Shown: in pieces, positions 1-64,000 of the stretch
Position numbering within the stretch: the stretch's first letter is position 1
How the letters are laid out: each line of letters begins with the position of its first letter
Position numbers and translations under genes: made by a program
Origin: Helicobacter sp. MIT 21-1697
Lineage (GTDB): Bacteria > Campylobacterota > Campylobacteria > Campylobacterales > Helicobacteraceae
Reading direction: 5' to 3'
Assembly (NCBI RefSeq): GCF_026241255.1
Contig: NZ_JAPHNC010000008.1
Coordinates: 1 to 64,000 of the forward strand
Length of the DNA stretch: 64,000 nt
The notes under the pieces: model-generated
The model's database searches: none
What the model was told of the DNA's origin: nothing
What the model saw: the letters and a program-made list of their open reading frames with translations, nothing else

Positions 1-423
1 GTTTTCAAGAACATCATCATCTTTACTGCCTAATTGAGCTCCTACAATACCAGAACCAGAATTAAAACTATCCCAAGCATAACCTACACTAAGATAAAGT
101 GGGATATTTTGAGTGAGGAGATTGACCCCAGCACTTATGCGCAAATCATCCATTACAAATGTATCGTTTTTAGCCCCATCTCTTTTAGTCTTACCCAAAC
201 CAATATCAAGTCCAAATTGGAGCAAAATTCTTTCATTGGCATAGGTATCCATACCCCATAGGGCAAGGTAACCACCTGTATTGGTAATGTCTTTTTCCCC
301 GCTTGGCTGTTGGAGGCTATATATGCCACCTAAGCCAATTCTTGCTATATGATAATCATCTGCAAATGCACATACTGCACCAAAGAGAGAAAAGCTTAAG
401 AATATTTTGCGTAAATATTTCAT
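1..423 (-). CDS. Outer-membrane beta-barrel protein of the peptide/OMP cassette family (3' end outside window)
   Basis: The start codon is at 423 and the gene runs off the left edge, so only about 140 N-terminal residues are seen. It opens with a Sec signal peptide (LFGAVCAFA), then alternating polar and hydrophobic strands typical of a small outer-membrane barrel. It is a close paralogue of the gene at 62575 and almost identical to the one starting at 63922 over the 79 coding bases available. It follows the peptide gene 441-740 by 17 bases and is probably cotranscribed with it. Unlike the two right-hand copies, the spacer here has no G tract. Function is unknown; the surface location is inferred from signal peptide and barrel-like pattern. 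Confidence 0.8.
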   Translation of the reverse strand, partial: MKYLRKIFLSFSLFGAVCAFADDYHIARIGLGGIYSLQQPSGEKDITNTGGYLALWGMDTYANERILLQFGLDIGLGKTKRDGAKNDTFVMDDLRISAGVNLLTQNIPLYLSVGYAWDSFNSGSGIVGAQLGSKDDDVLEN

Positions 424-970: not shown

Positions 971-1702
971 TTAACCCAATAAGTTTTCAAGGCTTATGCC
1001 GCATTCAAGCATAAAAGCGTAGTCTCTGCGCGGAGGCAGAGTAGAGGTTGTCGCGTTATGATAAGCAATGGCATTAAGTCGCACATATATATCACTCTTT
1101 TTATGGTAAGTCTCCCCTCGTTTAAAGCGCATACCTAGAAAAGTATCAACGCGATAGCTTCTGTCAATATGGCTTGTTTCTCTCTCAAAGCCTTTATTGA
1201 CGCTTTCATTGATGTAGTCTCGCAGGATATTTGCGCCCATTCCCACTCCCACCTCTAGCACTATGCTATCACTTATGTTTGCATAATAAGCCATAGCAGG
1301 ACCTATGAAGAGTTGGCTTACATTGAGGCTTGTATCGTTGTATTCGCCGATTCCATATCGTTCCCACTGCGCTTGAATATAAACAAAAAGCGGATTTTCG
1401 CCACCGAGTTTTACACCAATGTGTGGGGTTATGGCAGTGAAAAGAGAGGTATCATTTTGGTTATATGTGTTTAAATCTGTTGTGGGTGTCAAGGTAGGGC
1501 TTACTTGTCCTATGATTACGCCCCCTGCGATATAAAAGATTCCCTTGTGGTAGGCAGCATATCCGGAGAGATATACGCCTGTGTTGTAGGTTTTGCTGTG
1601 ATGTGCCCCCAATCCCACTCGTATATCCTCGCAATGTGTGCTATAACAAGTATAGGCACAAACATTGCAAAGCATAAGGGCAAGAGCAAGGACTATCCGC
1701 AT
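971..1702 (-). CDS. Outer-membrane beta-barrel protein of the cassette family (243 aa)
   Basis: An N-terminal Sec signal peptide (MRIVLALALMLCNVCA) is followed by a Cys pair (CYSTHC) and a series of about eight amphipathic strands, fitting a small outer-membrane barrel. It is a distant paralogue of 1864-2592, which has a similar Cys pair after its signal peptide. It lies last in a probable transcript 2686 peptide -> 1864 barrel -> truncated peptide 1706 -> 971 barrel. Its start is only 3 bases past the stop of the truncated peptide gene, so translational coupling is possible. No function can be assigned; export to the outer membrane is inferred. Confidence 0.75.
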   Translation of the reverse strand: MRIVLALALMLCNVCAYTCYSTHCEDIRVGLGAHHSKTYNTGVYLSGYAAYHKGIFYIAGGVIIGQVSPTLTPTTDLNTYNQNDTSLFTAITPHIGVKLGGENPLFVYIQAQWERYGIGEYNDTSLNVSQLFIGPAMAYYANISDSIVLEVGVGMGANILRDYINESVNKGFERETSHIDRSYRVDTFLGMRFKRGETYHKKSDIYVRLNAIAYHNATTSTLPPRRDYAFMLECGISLENLLG

Positions 1703-1705
1703 AGA

Positions 1706-1813
1706 CTATAATTTTACCTCTACTTTCCAATCTTTGCATTTACGCTTTGCTGCACACAGCGGACTCAAGGCTAAGCCTAAGTGTGAAATGAGAATCAAAC
1801 TTGTCTTTTTCAT
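1706..1813 (-). pseudogene. Truncated peptide-gene remnant (signal peptide only, 35 codons)
   Basis: Reading from an ATG at 1813 with AAGGA upstream gives a signal peptide very like the intact peptide genes (MKKTSLILISHLGLALSPLCAA), but the frame then runs into unrelated basic residues and stops at 1706. The pro-region, the EGE motif and the C-terminal peptide are absent. It occupies exactly the position of a peptide gene, directly before a barrel gene. I read it as a decayed cassette peptide. It could still be translated and could couple translation into the barrel gene at 1702. Confidence 0.65.
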
Positions 1814-1863: not shown

Positions 1864-2592
1864 TTACAAACCCTTAAAACCTATCTCAAGCATAGCTACG
1901 AAGTTATGAGAAGCAGGAAATTGCTGCACATTTTGATAAAGAGCTTTTTGCAAGTTTTGATATTTGCCCCTAAGTCTTGCATAAAAGCCTGTATTATCTG
2001 ATATATTGCGCGTAAATCCTATGCTCGCATTGATTTCATCACTATAATTATTGACTTTTGACTTAATATCATTGACAACATACTGCCCAGAACCCACCCA
2101 AGCATAACCAAGTGAATAATCAAGCTGTGTAAGAGGACTTATTGCCATAGCACCCTCTAGCTCACCACCAAGCAAAATAAGGCTTCTATCAATACCATTA
2201 TGAGAAGCAATATTACCATTATGGTCATCTGCTTCAATCACGAGATTAACAAAAAGTGGTGTGCTTTTAGTAGCGATATTTGCACCAATTTTTACATAGG
2301 CATCAAAGATAAAAAGTGGAGCTTTGGATTCTATAAAAGGGATACTACTGCTTTGCGTTAAGCCTCCACCTATACGCCCACCCATAGCAAATTGAAACCT
2401 TTGATAATACACACTTTTGCCCTCTAATGAAATATATGCACCATAGCTTGAAATATCTGCACTGCCAAAGTCATAATACGCTCCACCTATACCAAAATGC
2501 CCAAGCCAACATTTACTCTCTTGGCATTGCGCAGCATTGGCATAGGAGGCAAAAAATAAGCAAAATAAAGCAAGAATTTTTTTATAAAACAT
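1864..2592 (-). CDS. Outer-membrane beta-barrel protein of the cassette family (242 aa)
   Basis: The protein has a Sec signal peptide ending ASYANA, a Cys pair (CQESKC) and then about eight Gly/aromatic-rich amphipathic strands. Length and pattern match the other cassette barrels (243 and 238 aa). GGAGCTC of the ribosome-binding site lies just upstream of the start at 2592. It follows the peptide gene 2686-2973 with a 93-base spacer that contains a perfect hairpin at 2657-2677. Function is unknown. A partner role with the upstream peptide, as export aid, receptor or immunity, is suggested only by the repeated gene pairing. Confidence 0.75.
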   Translation of the reverse strand: MFYKKILALFCLFFASYANAAQCQESKCWLGHFGIGGAYYDFGSADISSYGAYISLEGKSVYYQRFQFAMGGRIGGGLTQSSSIPFIESKAPLFIFDAYVKIGANIATKSTPLFVNLVIEADDHNGNIASHNGIDRSLILLGGELEGAMAISPLTQLDYSLGYAWVGSGQYVVNDIKSKVNNYSDEINASIGFTRNISDNTGFYARLRGKYQNLQKALYQNVQQFPASHNFVAMLEIGFKGL

Positions 2593-3163: not shown

Positions 3164-3559
3164 TCACATTCCTACAAAGGCTTCACCCGCTACATTGAAC
3201 ACAACTAAAATGCCTAGTAAGCCCATAAAGGCATAGAAATATGTGTGTTCATTTTTGACTTTCATCACCTTAAAGCACAGAAAACATACAAAAATCGCAT
3301 AGAGCGCAAGGCTTAGCAGCACCCAAATATGTATGCCTAAAGAAGTAAAGACAAAGCTGATATTCACAAAAGGTGATTGCAAAGACATACCCCACAAAAT
3401 CACTGCTATGCCACACACATAGCCAAGTAATACAGCCCAAAACTCATATTTATGTAAATATTTAAAACAAAAAAGGAGATAATTCACACAGAGCATAATC
3501 AAGAAAAAGAGCCATATACATAGTTGTTCTACAATGAATGTCATTTGGTACAACCTCAT
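3164..3559 (-). CDS. Hypothetical small integral membrane protein (131 aa)
   Basis: About four hydrophobic segments can be seen (roughly residues 9-32, 40-57, 68-95 and 107-125), with few charged residues between them, so this is an inner-membrane protein. I do not recognise the family. Its last 30 or so codons recur as fragments at 62029-62127 and 63368-63409, each time directly upstream of a cassette promoter. This gene is therefore the intact parent of the scars and marks the boundary of the duplicated block. It could be a neighbour swept up in the duplications or a functional member, for example an immunity protein. Confidence 0.65.
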   Translation of the reverse strand: MRLYQMTFIVEQLCIWLFFLIMLCVNYLLFCFKYLHKYEFWAVLLGYVCGIAVILWGMSLQSPFVNISFVFTSLGIHIWVLLSLALYAIFVCFLCFKVMKVKNEHTYFYAFMGLLGILVVFNVAGEAFVGM

Positions 3560-55276: not shown

Positions 55277-56941
55277 CTATACTACTTCAATCCACTTTGG
55301 AAGATAAGTGGCAAATCTATCCTGTATAAGTGCATTTTGTATTAGATTCCCTTTGAATACTACTTGCTCTAAATGATAATATGTGCAAAGCTGCGTAAGT
55401 GCAAGAGATAATATCTCGCATATAGAACTTACTGCACCATAGGCTACACCTTCAATTTCTAATCCTCCAAGCAGATAGCATAAAGGCAAACGCAGAGATT
55501 TATCTATTTCAATATTGCAGCTTTCTTCGCCATTAAGTTTCATATCAAGCCTACTGATATGCGGAAAAAGATAGCTTTGTGCGCTTTGGAGAGTATCAAG
55601 TGCGTTAGGATTGCTCTTACCAAACATTTCACCCACTAGCTTTAAAATATCACTTGCATTACGGGAGAGCTCACCTTGAGAATCTTCATCTGTGTTTATA
55701 TGAGGGAGTTGTTGTTGCACACGCCATTGTTGATAGTTTTCCACAAGTCGCGCACCGAGCTTATTTCTTTTTGCGATTTGCATAAGTAGGGTAGGGAGAT
55801 GAGATTGGAAGCAAAGTGCGATTAGGTTATCTTGTGCTGATTGTGTGTGCGTATATATACGCGTGGGAGAGAGTGTATCAAACTCAAGACACAGCGTATT
55901 TTTTGGTATAGATTCTATCAAAGTGTGTGTGCAAGGAAGTGTTTTGAGAGGCTTTTGTTTCGTGAGATACGCATTTGCATTATTCAGTGGTTCTTCTATG
56001 CGCCCAAAACTATCCCAAAAATCAGGCTCACTACACGCAATACAGCCGTGTCCTGCTTGAATAGGGTAACTTGTTTTAGCATTAAATTTGACTTTAGGGC
56101 AGTTATTAAACACATAAGGTCCCTTACATCCGACTTTATAGAGACAATAACCATCTTGTAAATGCACATCATCAAAGCTCTGCACAAAATCGCCAGATTC
56201 AAATTTTGCCTTACGCTCACACATATCGTGTAGATTCTTGCCATAGCTCCATATCGGACGATGCAAAGAATCTGTTGGGGGAAGCTCTTGTAAAAGAATA
56301 TAATAGAGGATACTGCCGATAATATTTGCCTCACTTGGCGGACAGCCCGGTATATTAATAATGCGTTGCGCAAGAGCAGAATCTACCCCTATGGATTGCG
56401 TAGGATTGGGATATGCTGCTTGCACTCCACCAAAGCTTGAGCAAGTGCCCACTGCGAATATAACTTGAGCCTTTTGTGCTACTTCTTTGCATTCTTGCTC
56501 GCCTGTGATACTATCTGCGCCAGAGGTAAGAAAATGTGCATTATTTCCCAGCGATATGCCACCTTCAATAACGAGGATAAACTCTTTGTCTAAAGCATCG
56601 TGTAAGGATTTTTTCGCGCTAAAGCCCACTGCTCCCATAATCGTTTCATGATATTCAAGGGTGATGTATTCAAGGAGGACAGATTCTATGTCTGGTTTAT
56701 CAAGGCGCAAAAAACTGCTGCTACAACCTGTGCATTCTGCCAAGTGAAGCCATACAAGCCGCGTGGGTGGCTTAAGAGCGAGGATTTGGGCACAGAGTTC
56801 TACGCCTTCTTTGGGGATACCTATAAGAGAGCAGATACGAGTGAGCCACTCTATATTTACCTTACAACGAGTTTCTTTATGTATGCTGTTAAGGGTATGG
56901 AGATGTGTTGTTAATCGTTCAAGTATTTGTGTTTTATCCAT
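55277..56941 (-). CDS. hydE: HydE-like protein: NiFe-hydrogenase small-subunit domain with HypF-like C-terminus (554 aa)
   Basis: The ATG at 56941 has GGAG 6 bases upstream. Residues 65-320 carry all the small-subunit cluster ligands: ECTGCSS, GTCSSFGG, IPGCPPSEANI, HDMCERK, GYCLYKVGCKGP and GHGCIACSEPDFWD. There is no Tat signal. The last 230 residues are not small-subunit-like; the end (YGAVSSICEILSLAL ... VVFKGNLIQNALIQDRF) resembles the C-terminal part of HypF. H. pylori HydE, required for hydrogenase activity, has this general nature. It stands alone here, away from hydABCD. Confidence 0.78.
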   Translation of the reverse strand: MDKTQILERLTTHLHTLNSIHKETRCKVNIEWLTRICSLIGIPKEGVELCAQILALKPPTRLVWLHLAECTGCSSSFLRLDKPDIESVLLEYITLEYHETIMGAVGFSAKKSLHDALDKEFILVIEGGISLGNNAHFLTSGADSITGEQECKEVAQKAQVIFAVGTCSSFGGVQAAYPNPTQSIGVDSALAQRIINIPGCPPSEANIIGSILYYILLQELPPTDSLHRPIWSYGKNLHDMCERKAKFESGDFVQSFDDVHLQDGYCLYKVGCKGPYVFNNCPKVKFNAKTSYPIQAGHGCIACSEPDFWDSFGRIEEPLNNANAYLTKQKPLKTLPCTHTLIESIPKNTLCLEFDTLSPTRIYTHTQSAQDNLIALCFQSHLPTLLMQIAKRNKLGARLVENYQQWRVQQQLPHINTDEDSQGELSRNASDILKLVGEMFGKSNPNALDTLQSAQSYLFPHISRLDMKLNGEESCNIEIDKSLRLPLCYLLGGLEIEGVAYGAVSSICEILSLALTQLCTYYHLEQVVFKGNLIQNALIQDRFATYLPKWIEVV

Positions 56942-57028
56942 AGCAAACTCCATAGTGTAAATAAGCTATTGTAACGCACTCTCTTTAAAAGCTAAGTAAA
57001 AAACAACCTTGTTTTTGCTGTCATAGTA

Positions 57029-62251: not shown

Positions 62252-62554
62252 ATGAAAAAACACATCATAACATTGGCATTATGCCTATCTTTGGGTTTAA
62301 GCCCATTATGTGCAGTTGAATCTGCTCACAAAAAGAGTGTGCAAAATGTAGCTTTATCAAAAGCTGATACAGAGTTCCTCTTTAATACTCAAGCACAAAA
62401 CATCAATGTAGTCGCATTAAGTGATGAGGAAATGGCAGAGACAGAGGGTGAAGCCATAGATCCTATTAGCGCTATACAAATAGCATACACTGCATATCAG
62501 GCATATGAAACAGGCAAAAAAGTTGTCAAAAAAATCAAAAGATGGTTTAGATAA
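62252..62554 (+). CDS. Small Sec-exported bacteriocin-precursor-like peptide (copy 3, 100 aa)
   Basis: Start chosen at 62252 (AAAGGATTTGGTT-ATG) as in copy 1. The signal peptide, pro-region and the ALSDEEMAETEGE motif are nearly the same as copy 1. The C-terminus after the motif is about 33 residues: IDPISAIQIAYTAYQAYETG and then a basic KKVVKKIKRWFR end. Copies 1 and 3 share the TAYQxYxxGKK pattern, so they form a subgroup. The barrel gene starts 20 bases after its stop, across a G11 tract. Function unknown; see copy 1. Confidence 0.82.
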   Translation: MKKHIITLALCLSLGLSPLCAVESAHKKSVQNVALSKADTEFLFNTQAQNINVVALSDEEMAETEGEAIDPISAIQIAYTAYQAYETGKKVVKKIKRWFR

Positions 62555-62557
62555 GCT

Positions 62558-62568
62558 GGGGGGGGGGG
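62558..62568 (+). repeat. G11 tract between peptide copy 3 and barrel gene
   Basis: Eleven Gs lie 6 bases before the barrel start codon; the tract plus following GGTGA supplies the ribosome-binding site. Slippage would change the distance between the peptide stop and the barrel start rather than the reading frame. Confidence 0.9.
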
Positions 62569-62574
62569 TGAGTA

Positions 62575-63291
62575 ATGAAATATTTACGCAAAATATTGTT
62601 AAGTGCCTCTCTCTTTGGTGCAGTATGTGCGTATGCAGGTGAATATAGCGCACTAAAGATAGGTATAGGTGGTGTATATATTCTCCAACAGCCAAGTGAT
62701 GAAAAAGATATTACCAATACAAGTGCTTATCTTGCTCTAAGGTCAAGATATTCTTTCCTTCAAGAAAGAATATTGCTACAACTTGAAGTTGAAACAAATA
62801 TCGGCAAGACTAAAAGGGAGAGAAACAAAAGCAATTCATTGCGTATGGAAAATTTTCTCTTAGGTGCTGGGGTCAATCTCCTCACTCCAAATACTCCGCT
62901 TTATCTTAGTGTAATGTATGGTATGGATAATTTTGAATATTGGGCATCAAATAGTTGGGTTGATAATGGACTTATGTTTGTAGGAGCCGATTTGCAAGGT
63001 TTTATCAAAAGCAATCATTTAACCTTTGAATACAATGTGGGCTATCACTATGTGCTAACAGGTTATTATGAACAAAATCAAAATAATTATGTTCGCGTAG
63101 ATACCGATAGTTCTAGCTATGCTATTAAAGGTGGGATAGGTTTTGTGTATGATATTACACAGCATATAGGTTTGTTTATGAATCTTCGTGCAAAATACTA
63201 TAATATAGCAGCTTCTAAGTTCAATGCAATCTTTACTCGTCCTACTACTAAACATTTCTTAGGTGGAGTGGAAGTAGGGATTAAGTTTTAA
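62575..63291 (+). CDS. Outer-membrane beta-barrel protein of the cassette family (238 aa)
   Basis: Signal peptide ending AVCAYA-GE, then about eight amphipathic strands and a C-terminal Phe (GGVEVGIKF), the usual BAM recognition end. Complete member of the subgroup to which 1-423 and 63922-64000 belong (MKYLRKI start). It follows peptide copy 3 across a G11 tract and should be co-expressed with it, with phase-variable translation possible. Function unknown. Confidence 0.82.
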   Translation: MKYLRKILLSASLFGAVCAYAGEYSALKIGIGGVYILQQPSDEKDITNTSAYLALRSRYSFLQERILLQLEVETNIGKTKRERNKSNSLRMENFLLGAGVNLLTPNTPLYLSVMYGMDNFEYWASNSWVDNGLMFVGADLQGFIKSNHLTFEYNVGYHYVLTGYYEQNQNNYVRVDTDSSSYAIKGGIGFVYDITQHIGLFMNLRAKYYNIAASKFNAIFTRPTTKHFLGGVEVGIKF

Positions 63292-63367
63292 GCGGCTTTA
63301 GAGATTCTTTATTAGAGATAGTGCAATGCACTATCTAACTTAAATAAAATTTTAAGGTTACACAAAT

Positions 63368-63409
63368 ATGATATTCAATGTAGCGGGTGAGCACTTTGTA
63401 GCAATATGA
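63368..63409 (+). pseudogene. Shorter C-terminal fragment of the 3164-type membrane gene
   Basis: FNVAGEHFVAI and a stop, matching the last residues of the gene at 3164 and of the fragment at 62029. It is followed by the type B upstream sequence of copy 4, as at 3163-3060. Confidence 0.7.
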
Positions 63410-63496
63410 TAGATTGTGTATATAAATGAGTGTTACAAATTGAAATTAGTTCTATATTCATATTTCTTGACTTAATAAATTTTTAAATATTCATTT

Positions 63497-63548
63497 TATA
63501 AAATATTTGCGAATTTACTTTAAACTTTGATAGTTTTAAGTAAAGTCA
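63497..63548 (+). promoter_or_regulatory. Promoter -10 and 5'-terminal hairpin of peptide gene copy 4 (type B)
   Basis: TATAAAAT (63497-63504) is followed by a stem: TTTACTTTAAACT (63514-63526) with AGTTTTAAGTAAA (63532-63544), one mismatch, extendable outward to start six bases after the -10 box. Upstream sequence matches the minus-strand copy at 3009-3150. Confidence 0.7.
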
Positions 63549-63581
63549 GATTCTAAAACTTTACTTCTTAAGGAGTGTATT

Positions 63582-63902
63582 ATGAAAAAAGGTGTTATCA
63601 GCTTGGCATTATGCCTATGTTTAGGGTTAAGCCCATTATGTGCAATAGAATCTGCTCAAAACAAGAGTGTGCAAAATGTAGCTTTATCAAAAGCCGATAA
63701 AGAATTTCTTTTCACTACAAATGCAACTCATCTTAATGTAGTGGCTTTAAGTGATGAGGAAATGGCAGAGACAGAGGGAGAAGCGTTAGACCCTATAACT
63801 GGTGGTTTGCTTATTGGAATCGCTTCAGGCGCAGGGGTTAAAATAGGCACAGAGTTAGCAGACAAAGCTATCAAAAAAATCAAAAAATGGTTTAAATGGT
63901 AA
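63582..63902 (+). CDS. Small Sec-exported bacteriocin-precursor-like peptide (copy 4, 106 aa)
   Basis: TAAGGAGTG precedes the ATG. Signal peptide (ending SPLCAIES), pro-region (SVQNVALSKAD, EFLF) and ALSDEEMAETEGEA are conserved. The C-terminus of about 37 residues has a Gly-rich hydrophobic stretch (GGLLIGIASGAGVKIG) and the KKIKKWFKW end shared with copy 1. Gly-rich helix plus cationic Trp end is typical of membrane-active peptides. The barrel gene starts 20 bases on, across a G10 tract. Confidence 0.82.
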   Translation: MKKGVISLALCLCLGLSPLCAIESAQNKSVQNVALSKADKEFLFTTNATHLNVVALSDEEMAETEGEALDPITGGLLIGIASGAGVKIGTELADKAIKKIKKWFKW

Positions 63903-63921: not shown

Positions 63922-64000
63922 ATGAAATATTTACGCAAAATATTCTTAAGCTTTTCTCTCTTTGGTGCAGTATGTGCATTTGCAGATGATTATCATATAG
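63922..64000 (+). CDS. Outer-membrane barrel protein of the cassette family (5' part only)
   Basis: Only the first 26 codons are inside the window. They encode the signal peptide of the barrel family and are identical to the start of the minus-strand gene 1-423 over the whole visible stretch. The remainder lies beyond the right edge. Confidence 0.75.
   Translation, partial: MKYLRKIFLSFSLFGAVCAFADDYHI

Follow-up and report, generated by a model that had tools for sequence, protein, structure and literature searches.

Results

Peptide and Partner Genes in the Window

The window, a 64,000-nt stretch of the Helicobacter sp. MIT 21-1697 genome that makes up most of contig C8 and begins at its first base, carries four genes of short peptide precursors. 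Two of them lie on the minus strand at 441–740 (core type T1, core EGVILTAIKVGYTAYQVYDIGKKIKKWFKW, net charge +4) and 2686–2973 (core type T2, core EFWEIVGVVIAGGNWLYDVGHNNGWWK, net charge –2), and two on the plus strand at 62252–62554 (T1, EAIDPISAIQIAYTAYQAYETGKKVVKKIKRWFR, +4) and 63582–63902 (T1, EALDPITGGLLIGIASGAGVKIGTELADKAIKKIKKWFKW, +3). The earlier note, whose span of 62252–63902 takes in two of these genes, had assigned all four to one family, and indeed each ORF is found at its coordinates and the four are clear paralogues, matching with 97–206 bits when the whole genome (1.79 Mb, 34 contigs) is searched at the protein level. Two of the three other paralogues are 70–79% identical to the query across its full length, and the third is 73% identical across the leader. 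The same search yields seven family members in the genome, three of them beyond the window (C1:201772, C2:146727, and C12:142). One decayed copy comes in addition and is the fifth copy in the window: a T3 peptide gene (approximately 1706–1813, minus strand) with the pro-region and motif deleted and the signal peptide fused to the tail of the core (LSPLCAA-KRKCKDWKVEVKL).

Predicted outer-membrane barrels adjoin these genes. The barrel partner of the 441–740 peptide (1–423, minus strand) is truncated by the contig end; a frameshift considered here was discarded, another frame being open up to the contig end. The 2686–2973 peptide is accompanied by a barrel of the T2 subtype (1864–2592, minus strand), and the 62252–62554 peptide by a 10-stranded barrel (62575–63291, plus strand; model pLDDT 91). 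The partner barrel of the last peptide starts at 63922–64000 (plus strand), continues beyond the window, and is truncated by the contig end at C8:64338. One more barrel (971–1702, minus strand), of the T3 subtype and with a weak match to OMP_b-brl (E 8.9e-5), is intact, its own peptide being the decayed one. A small hydrophobic protein with several transmembrane (TM) segments is encoded at 3164–3559 (minus strand), with no T4 peptide here. Elsewhere in the window, we observe a 558-aa ORF (55277–56953), whose first half appears to resemble the small subunit of NiFe-hydrogenase, and whose second half is of no evident kind.

Architecture of the Precursors

The precursors are approximately 80–105 aa long and comprise, in this order, a Sec-type signal, a pro-region, the motif, and a variable core. 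The signal, as judged by eye, spans about 21 residues, with K in the n-region, a hydrophobic core, and LCA or a similar end ahead of an acidic start. The pro-region follows the pattern LSxADxEFLF...N-V and is succeeded by the motif LSDEEMxxTxGE; the invariant columns of the alignment are M1, K3, L35, L43, F44, L56, E60, M61, and G66. The motif is in register with the leader consensus of C39 peptidases, L(–12)xxxE(–8)L(–7)xxxxG(–2)G(–1) (PMC6959990), position –4 usually being T and the last residue usually E. In 60 sequences, the consensus positions are occupied by L in 57, E in 58, M or L in 60, T in 55, and G in 60, part of this being fixed by the search pattern itself. Because the second position of the site usually holds E, or else F, A, Q, K, or N, instead of G, the exact cut site is uncertain. 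The combination proposed in the earlier note, namely a Sec-type leader, a double-glycine-like motif, and a variable product, is supported.

Cores, counted from the E, are 27–40 residues long in the window, with the overall median of 33.5. Trp is present in 55 of the 60 distinct cores, where it constitutes 6.0% of residues vs. 0.06% in the leaders, and GxxxG is found 46 times, compared to 26 ± 4.5 in shuffled cores (none of 2000 shuffles as high). By inspection, at least six core types can be distinguished: cationic amphipathic T1 (KKIKKWFKW), T2 (GEFW...GWWK, acidic in the window), T3 with a Cys pair and a VRL/VRF-like end, T4 (NAPxP...YSGxP), T5 (GFGFW), and T6, which is short, basic, often with Pro, and located immediately before the FapF-like gene described below. 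The basic Trp-containing tail, noted earlier for three of the four window genes, holds for one core type and not for the rest. The best conserved core type is T4, with NAPxP(N)D/xxxYxGxP ending its cores in eight loci across distant families.

The peptides have no family match above the cut-off in Pfam and NCBIfam, and searches of PADLOC and PHROGs with the peptides, the partner barrel, and the TM protein gave nothing meaningful. Sub-threshold peptide matches are to Lactococcin (E 0.08) and, in one of 20 members, to Mersacidin/cytolysin (E 0.003).

Homogeneous Leaders and Divergent Cores

The contrast between a conserved leader and a diverging end, also pointed out previously, is real and sharp, with divergence beginning exactly after the motif. 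Leaders of window pairs are identical at 155–178 of 198 DNA positions (or 162 of 204), and same-genome leaders elsewhere, at 186 of 189 and 218 of 219 positions; past the motif, the DNA of the latter, near-identical pairs aligns at approximately 52% with many gaps, and the cores are unrelated. Where a genome has several units, the closest leader is one of the same genome in 11 of 21 cases, and the closest core in none of 21. This pattern suggests that the leader is kept alike among paralogues, while the core and its partner are exchanged as a unit.

Partner Genes

Peptides of types T1–T3 are followed, mostly within approximately 100 bases, by a gene of a barrel of about 240 aa. The model of one such barrel (62575–63291) has 10 strands and OpcA and OmpT as its nearest folds, at identity not exceeding 13%. 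Proteolytic immunity of the omptin kind, prompted by this fold match, was ruled out, since partner barrels have no Asp or His in invariant or near-invariant columns and no omptin family match was obtained.

Barrels and cores are paired. The best cross-genome match of the barrel is also that of the core in 15 of 31 units, and is among the top two in 20 of 31; free permutation gives 1.06 on average and seven at most, and permutation within genomes reaches 15 once in 1000. This nearest-neighbor test, the sharper of the two applied, was chosen after a weaker rank correlation between core and barrel similarity (Spearman 0.26, a value reached in 232 of 5000 permutations within genomes), which is only modest because most pairs are unrelated.

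All eight T4 peptides have a short TM ORF directly downstream (clear in seven cases, weak in one) and no barrel; likeness among these TM partners was judged by eye. The TM protein at 3164–3559 has no match in Pfam, NCBIfam, and PADLOC, and is similar, again by eye, to the TM partner of a T4 (NAPAP) peptide in genome G002 (L039:5319–5687); its gene is a candidate orphan immunity gene.

Approximately nine intact barrels adjoin a decayed or missing peptide, and the modes of decay differ: in the T3 gene of the window the middle is lost, in genome G009 there is an in-frame stop, and in G002 the gene ends directly after the motif. Where the downstream sequence suffices, we see no peptide of a barrel-associated type without a barrel; in one locus (L112) two peptides precede a single barrel. 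Partners that outlive their peptides, with no case of the reverse, fit the pattern expected of immunity genes, but fall short of proving immunity.

Standalone C39 Peptidase and FapF-Like Channel

Each of nine genomes of the genus encodes exactly one PF03412 (C39) protein, a standalone ORF of approximately 230 aa that bears a signal peptide of its own (by eye), and no C39-ABC transporter was found in these nine genomes. Canonical C39-ABC export was rejected, as the only C39 per genus genome is unfused to an ABC exporter. That a double-glycine motif should follow a Sec signal is explained by the standalone peptidase, which itself carries a signal peptide. The enzyme resembles FapD (NF058616; E 1.7e-24, 86 bits vs. 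the equivalog cut-off of 330 bits) and FilB (E 3.4e-22), its nearest solved relative is the protease domain of PCAT (E 1.9e-6), and Cys51, His147, and Asp163 are invariant.

In the genome studied, the C39 gene lies outside the window, on contig C12 (1348–2031), preceded by a peptide (142–384) and a 306-aa barrel (428–1348). The only PDB profile match of this barrel is FapF (E about 1e-3); its model is 12-stranded (pLDDT 84), and the top 18 matches in a fold search with the model are all FapF chains (TM score about 0.7). The gene order on C12 is peptide, FapF-like gene, C39, and flagellar genes, and on C8, dcd – peptide – barrel – peptide, the contig then ending in the partner barrel. Since the order dcd – peptide(s)/barrel(s) – FapF-like – C39 is contiguous in genomes G002 and G009, the right end of the window is probably part of such a locus.

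A second FapF-like paralog (RPPVEGDVLDSN...) adjoins T5 peptides in five loci of one genus, besides the paralog next to C39. In another genome (G005, contig C16), we observe a C39 remnant of 239 aa, with the first half replaced in frame by an N-terminus resembling a chemotaxis receptor; this genome is without a family peptide.

Distribution and Co-occurrence

Family members are present in eight of 11 genomes of the genus. A profile of 20 members matches 40 of 397 Campylobacteria genomes and, after removal of one false match, a TonB-type receptor, 39 genomes from several families. Peptide counts are minima, as draft contigs break at these repeats. With close C39 defined by E < 1e-20, the 397 genomes fall into 35 with both peptide and C39, four with the peptide only, eight with C39 only, and 350 with neither (Fisher p 6e-38), and the corresponding genus-level counts are 12, 1, 4, and 51 (p 3e-9); these counts are phylogenetically non-independent and the distribution is patchy. 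In two of the C39-only genomes, diverged peptides adjoin the FapF-like gene (E 3e-4). Three others, from one family, encode a more distant C39 group, and the two of them that were inspected carry Fap-like repeat proteins instead. The gene order peptide – (partner) – FapF-like – C39 recurs across several families.

Many other Campylobacteria, from another family, have no member of this peptide family and encode a distant standalone C39 of approximately 200 aa (E 1e-6 to 1e-16). At two loci (L134:4314–12000 in genome G067 and L135:4692–11375 in G262), a FapF-like ORF and the genes of long secreted proteins rich in repeats (amyloid-like) lie in the vicinity of a more distant standalone C39. The mature part of these secreted proteins starts with LSDDALGGVSAQG or LSDSDLGEISAQG, that is, with a C39-like motif right behind the signal peptide; found on possible amyloid substrates, this motif may bear on the target of FapD.

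Similar sets are plasmid-borne in Acinetobacter, as found by tblastn of plasmids with C39, the FapF-likeness of ORFs being judged by eye. On the 6.3-kb mobilizable plasmid pTR11_4, the genes of a Sec-type precursor with LSNQEMKDTQGA and of a hydrophobic protein of 108 aa are joined by C39 and an incomplete FapF-like ORF; on a plasmid of 135 kb, C39 and a FapF-like ORF occur together with three precursors containing LSRQEMKDTQGA. A peptide and a small TM protein on a small mobilizable plasmid is the typical layout of bacteriocin plasmids. Plasmids NZ_CP114260.1 and NZ_CP127913.1, on which we observe Sec-type precursors with LSxQEMKDTQGA, small TM proteins, FapF-like ORFs, and C39, look like uncharacterized bacteriocin plasmids. 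A literature search, in which subscription journals were thinly covered, found nothing joining Acinetobacter, bacteriocin, and “C39 family peptidase.”

Discussion

Proposed Route and Function

The motif register, the homology of the machinery, and the genetic linkage point, with good confidence, to a common route of processing and export. The Sec signal would take the precursor into the periplasm, where the standalone FapD-like C39 would read the pro-region helix L(–12)xxxE(–8)M(–7)xxT(–4)xG(–2)E(–1) and cut behind it; the short Trp-rich core thus freed would leave the cell via the FapF-like 12-stranded barrel. As effector, the core would most likely target membranes of related bacteria, and the gene directly downstream would encode its cognate partner, most likely for self-protection. 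In most types this partner would be an outer-membrane barrel of 10 strands, and in the NAPxP type, a small inner-membrane protein with several TM segments. We infer localization, cleavage, export, and the role in immunity.

Taken as a whole, these genes probably encode bacteriocin-like peptides that are exported by Sec, processed in the periplasm, and accompanied by cognate partners of an immunity-like kind. The earlier suggestion of secreted, perhaps antimicrobial or toxin, peptides still offers the best reading, with export machinery and partner genes now found; the antimicrobial or toxin role itself is putative. Judged from the sequences, antagonism with cognate protection seems the most plausible function; besides the E at the presumed cut site, three points weigh on the other side. 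Immunity through an outer-membrane barrel would be unusual, and the barrels have neither a catalytic signature nor a known family; to our knowledge, outer-membrane beta-barrels of this kind have not been known as immunity proteins. The T2 core is acidic in the window. Finally, caution is called for because the nearest analog, the Nap peptides of Neisseria, had no killing effect on other bacteria (PMC11798529).

A wider claim is possible, and we make it tentatively. Modular Sec-exported bacteriocins, activated by a periplasmic standalone C39 and leaving via FapF, might occur throughout Campylobacterota, and on plasmids in Acinetobacter, with the core and its partner swapped as a unit behind a homogenized leader, and with outer-membrane beta-barrels as cognate immunity proteins. 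If true, such peptide weapons would provide gut Helicobacter species with a means of competition, and barrels as immunity partners would constitute a new mode of self-protection.

Alternative Explanations

The peptides could also be agents of self-lysis (programmed cell death), as proposed for the nap island, with the same processing and export and the cell's own stationary-phase population as the target. The set of components is that of nap (GG-type cationic peptides, a standalone C39, and a FapF homolog), and Nap peptides promoted autolysis and caused no inhibition of competitors (PMC11798529). However, several swapped core types per genome, each with a matching partner, and the retention of partners after peptide decay fit competition and immunity better than a shared lysis program, and we consider self-lysis unlikely here.

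Involvement in a surface structure or adhesion is improbable as well. The peptides would assemble with or plug the cognate barrel, or form fibers as in Fap, consistent with the role of C39 and FapF homologs in amyloid export in Pseudomonas (PMC5557850), with the adhesin OpcA being nearest to the partner barrel model, and with the presence, at the related C39/FapF loci of two deep genomes (L134, L135), of long repeat proteins whose leader motif is similar. Still, the cores are short, Trp-rich, and highly diverse, without Fap-type Asn/Gln repeats, one core type pairs with an inner-membrane protein, and barrels persist without peptides.

Short exported peptides with C39-type leaders also act as signals in other bacteria, and the peptides might be pheromones, with related cells using the cognate partner to sense them. 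By inspection, however, no sensor kinase or regulator is adjacent in the mapped loci, the partner is either a barrel or a very small TM protein, and several unrelated hydrophobic cores are present per genome, which makes signaling very improbable.

That these are ordinary small periplasmic proteins or lipoproteins with a coincidental motif is hardly credible: they do share a signal peptide and small size, but most members have SPLC-A with Leu at –1 and others no Cys, hence no lipobox [LVI][ASTVI][GAS]C, on which ground the lipoprotein reading was rejected, divergence starts exactly past the motif, and the genes are tightly linked to those of C39 and the FapF-like protein.

Comparison With Known Systems

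Among known systems, the family is close to class II bacteriocins and microcins, which are exported by C39-ABC transporters and with which it shares LSxxE[LM]xx[T/I]xG in register, a short, amphipathic, GxxxG- and Trp-rich variable core, and an adjacent immunity-like gene. In contrast to them, the leader stands behind a Sec-type signal, there is no C39-ABC transporter in the genus genomes, and the exit would be FapF-like rather than a type I secretion system. In the literature, with subscription journals thinly covered, we found no such peptide weapons in Helicobacter or Campylobacter, nor double-glycine bacteriocins of Helicobacter itself.

The peptides had been thought to form an undescribed class. 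This needs qualification, as the three-part logic is already present in the nap island (PMC11798529), and a periplasmic C39 with FapF, in the Fap system (PMC5557850); what stands is a new variant. The nap island of Neisseria encodes small cationic GG-type peptides NapA/B/C, a standalone C39 NapP, and a FapF-family channel NapF; the peptides are proposed to be cut in the periplasm, and a candidate immunity-like gene adjoins them (PMC11798529). Both systems therefore combine several small C39-motif peptides, a standalone C39, and a FapF-family channel. NapH is suggested to carry Naps across the inner membrane, and GG leaders are described there with no mention of a Sec signal (PMC11798529). Compared to this published description, the Helicobacter family has a Sec-type signal ahead of the motif, the site GE, and exchangeable core units with dedicated barrels or TM proteins, and it extends over many genera.

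The likeness to Fap consists of a FapD-like C39 with a signal peptide and a 12-stranded channel of the FapF fold. Here, however, short peptides rich in Trp and with an unmistakable C39 motif take the place of amyloid repeat proteins as substrates, and by inspection the cores contain no FapA/B/C/E-type amyloid repeats; moreover, the FapF-like barrel (approximately 300 aa) is shorter than its Fap counterpart, and C39 scores below the FapD equivalog cut-off. The founding paper called the substrate of FapD unclear (PMC5557850). In the loci described here, the genes of a FapD-like enzyme and a FapF-like channel directly adjoin those of short substrates, putatively exported by Sec, that bear a textbook C39 motif, which makes the question of the FapD substrate testable in vitro. 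Fil of Acinetobacter (FilB C39, NCBIfam NF050078), annotated as a putative pilus system, has a similar standalone C39, the likeness resting on the C39 sequence.

New here are the Sec-type signal before a canonical C39 motif, the exchangeable core–partner units, the use of both barrels and TM proteins as partners, and the breadth of distribution; if the reading as bacteriocin-like peptides is true, the nap island would be one branch of a broader secretion class.
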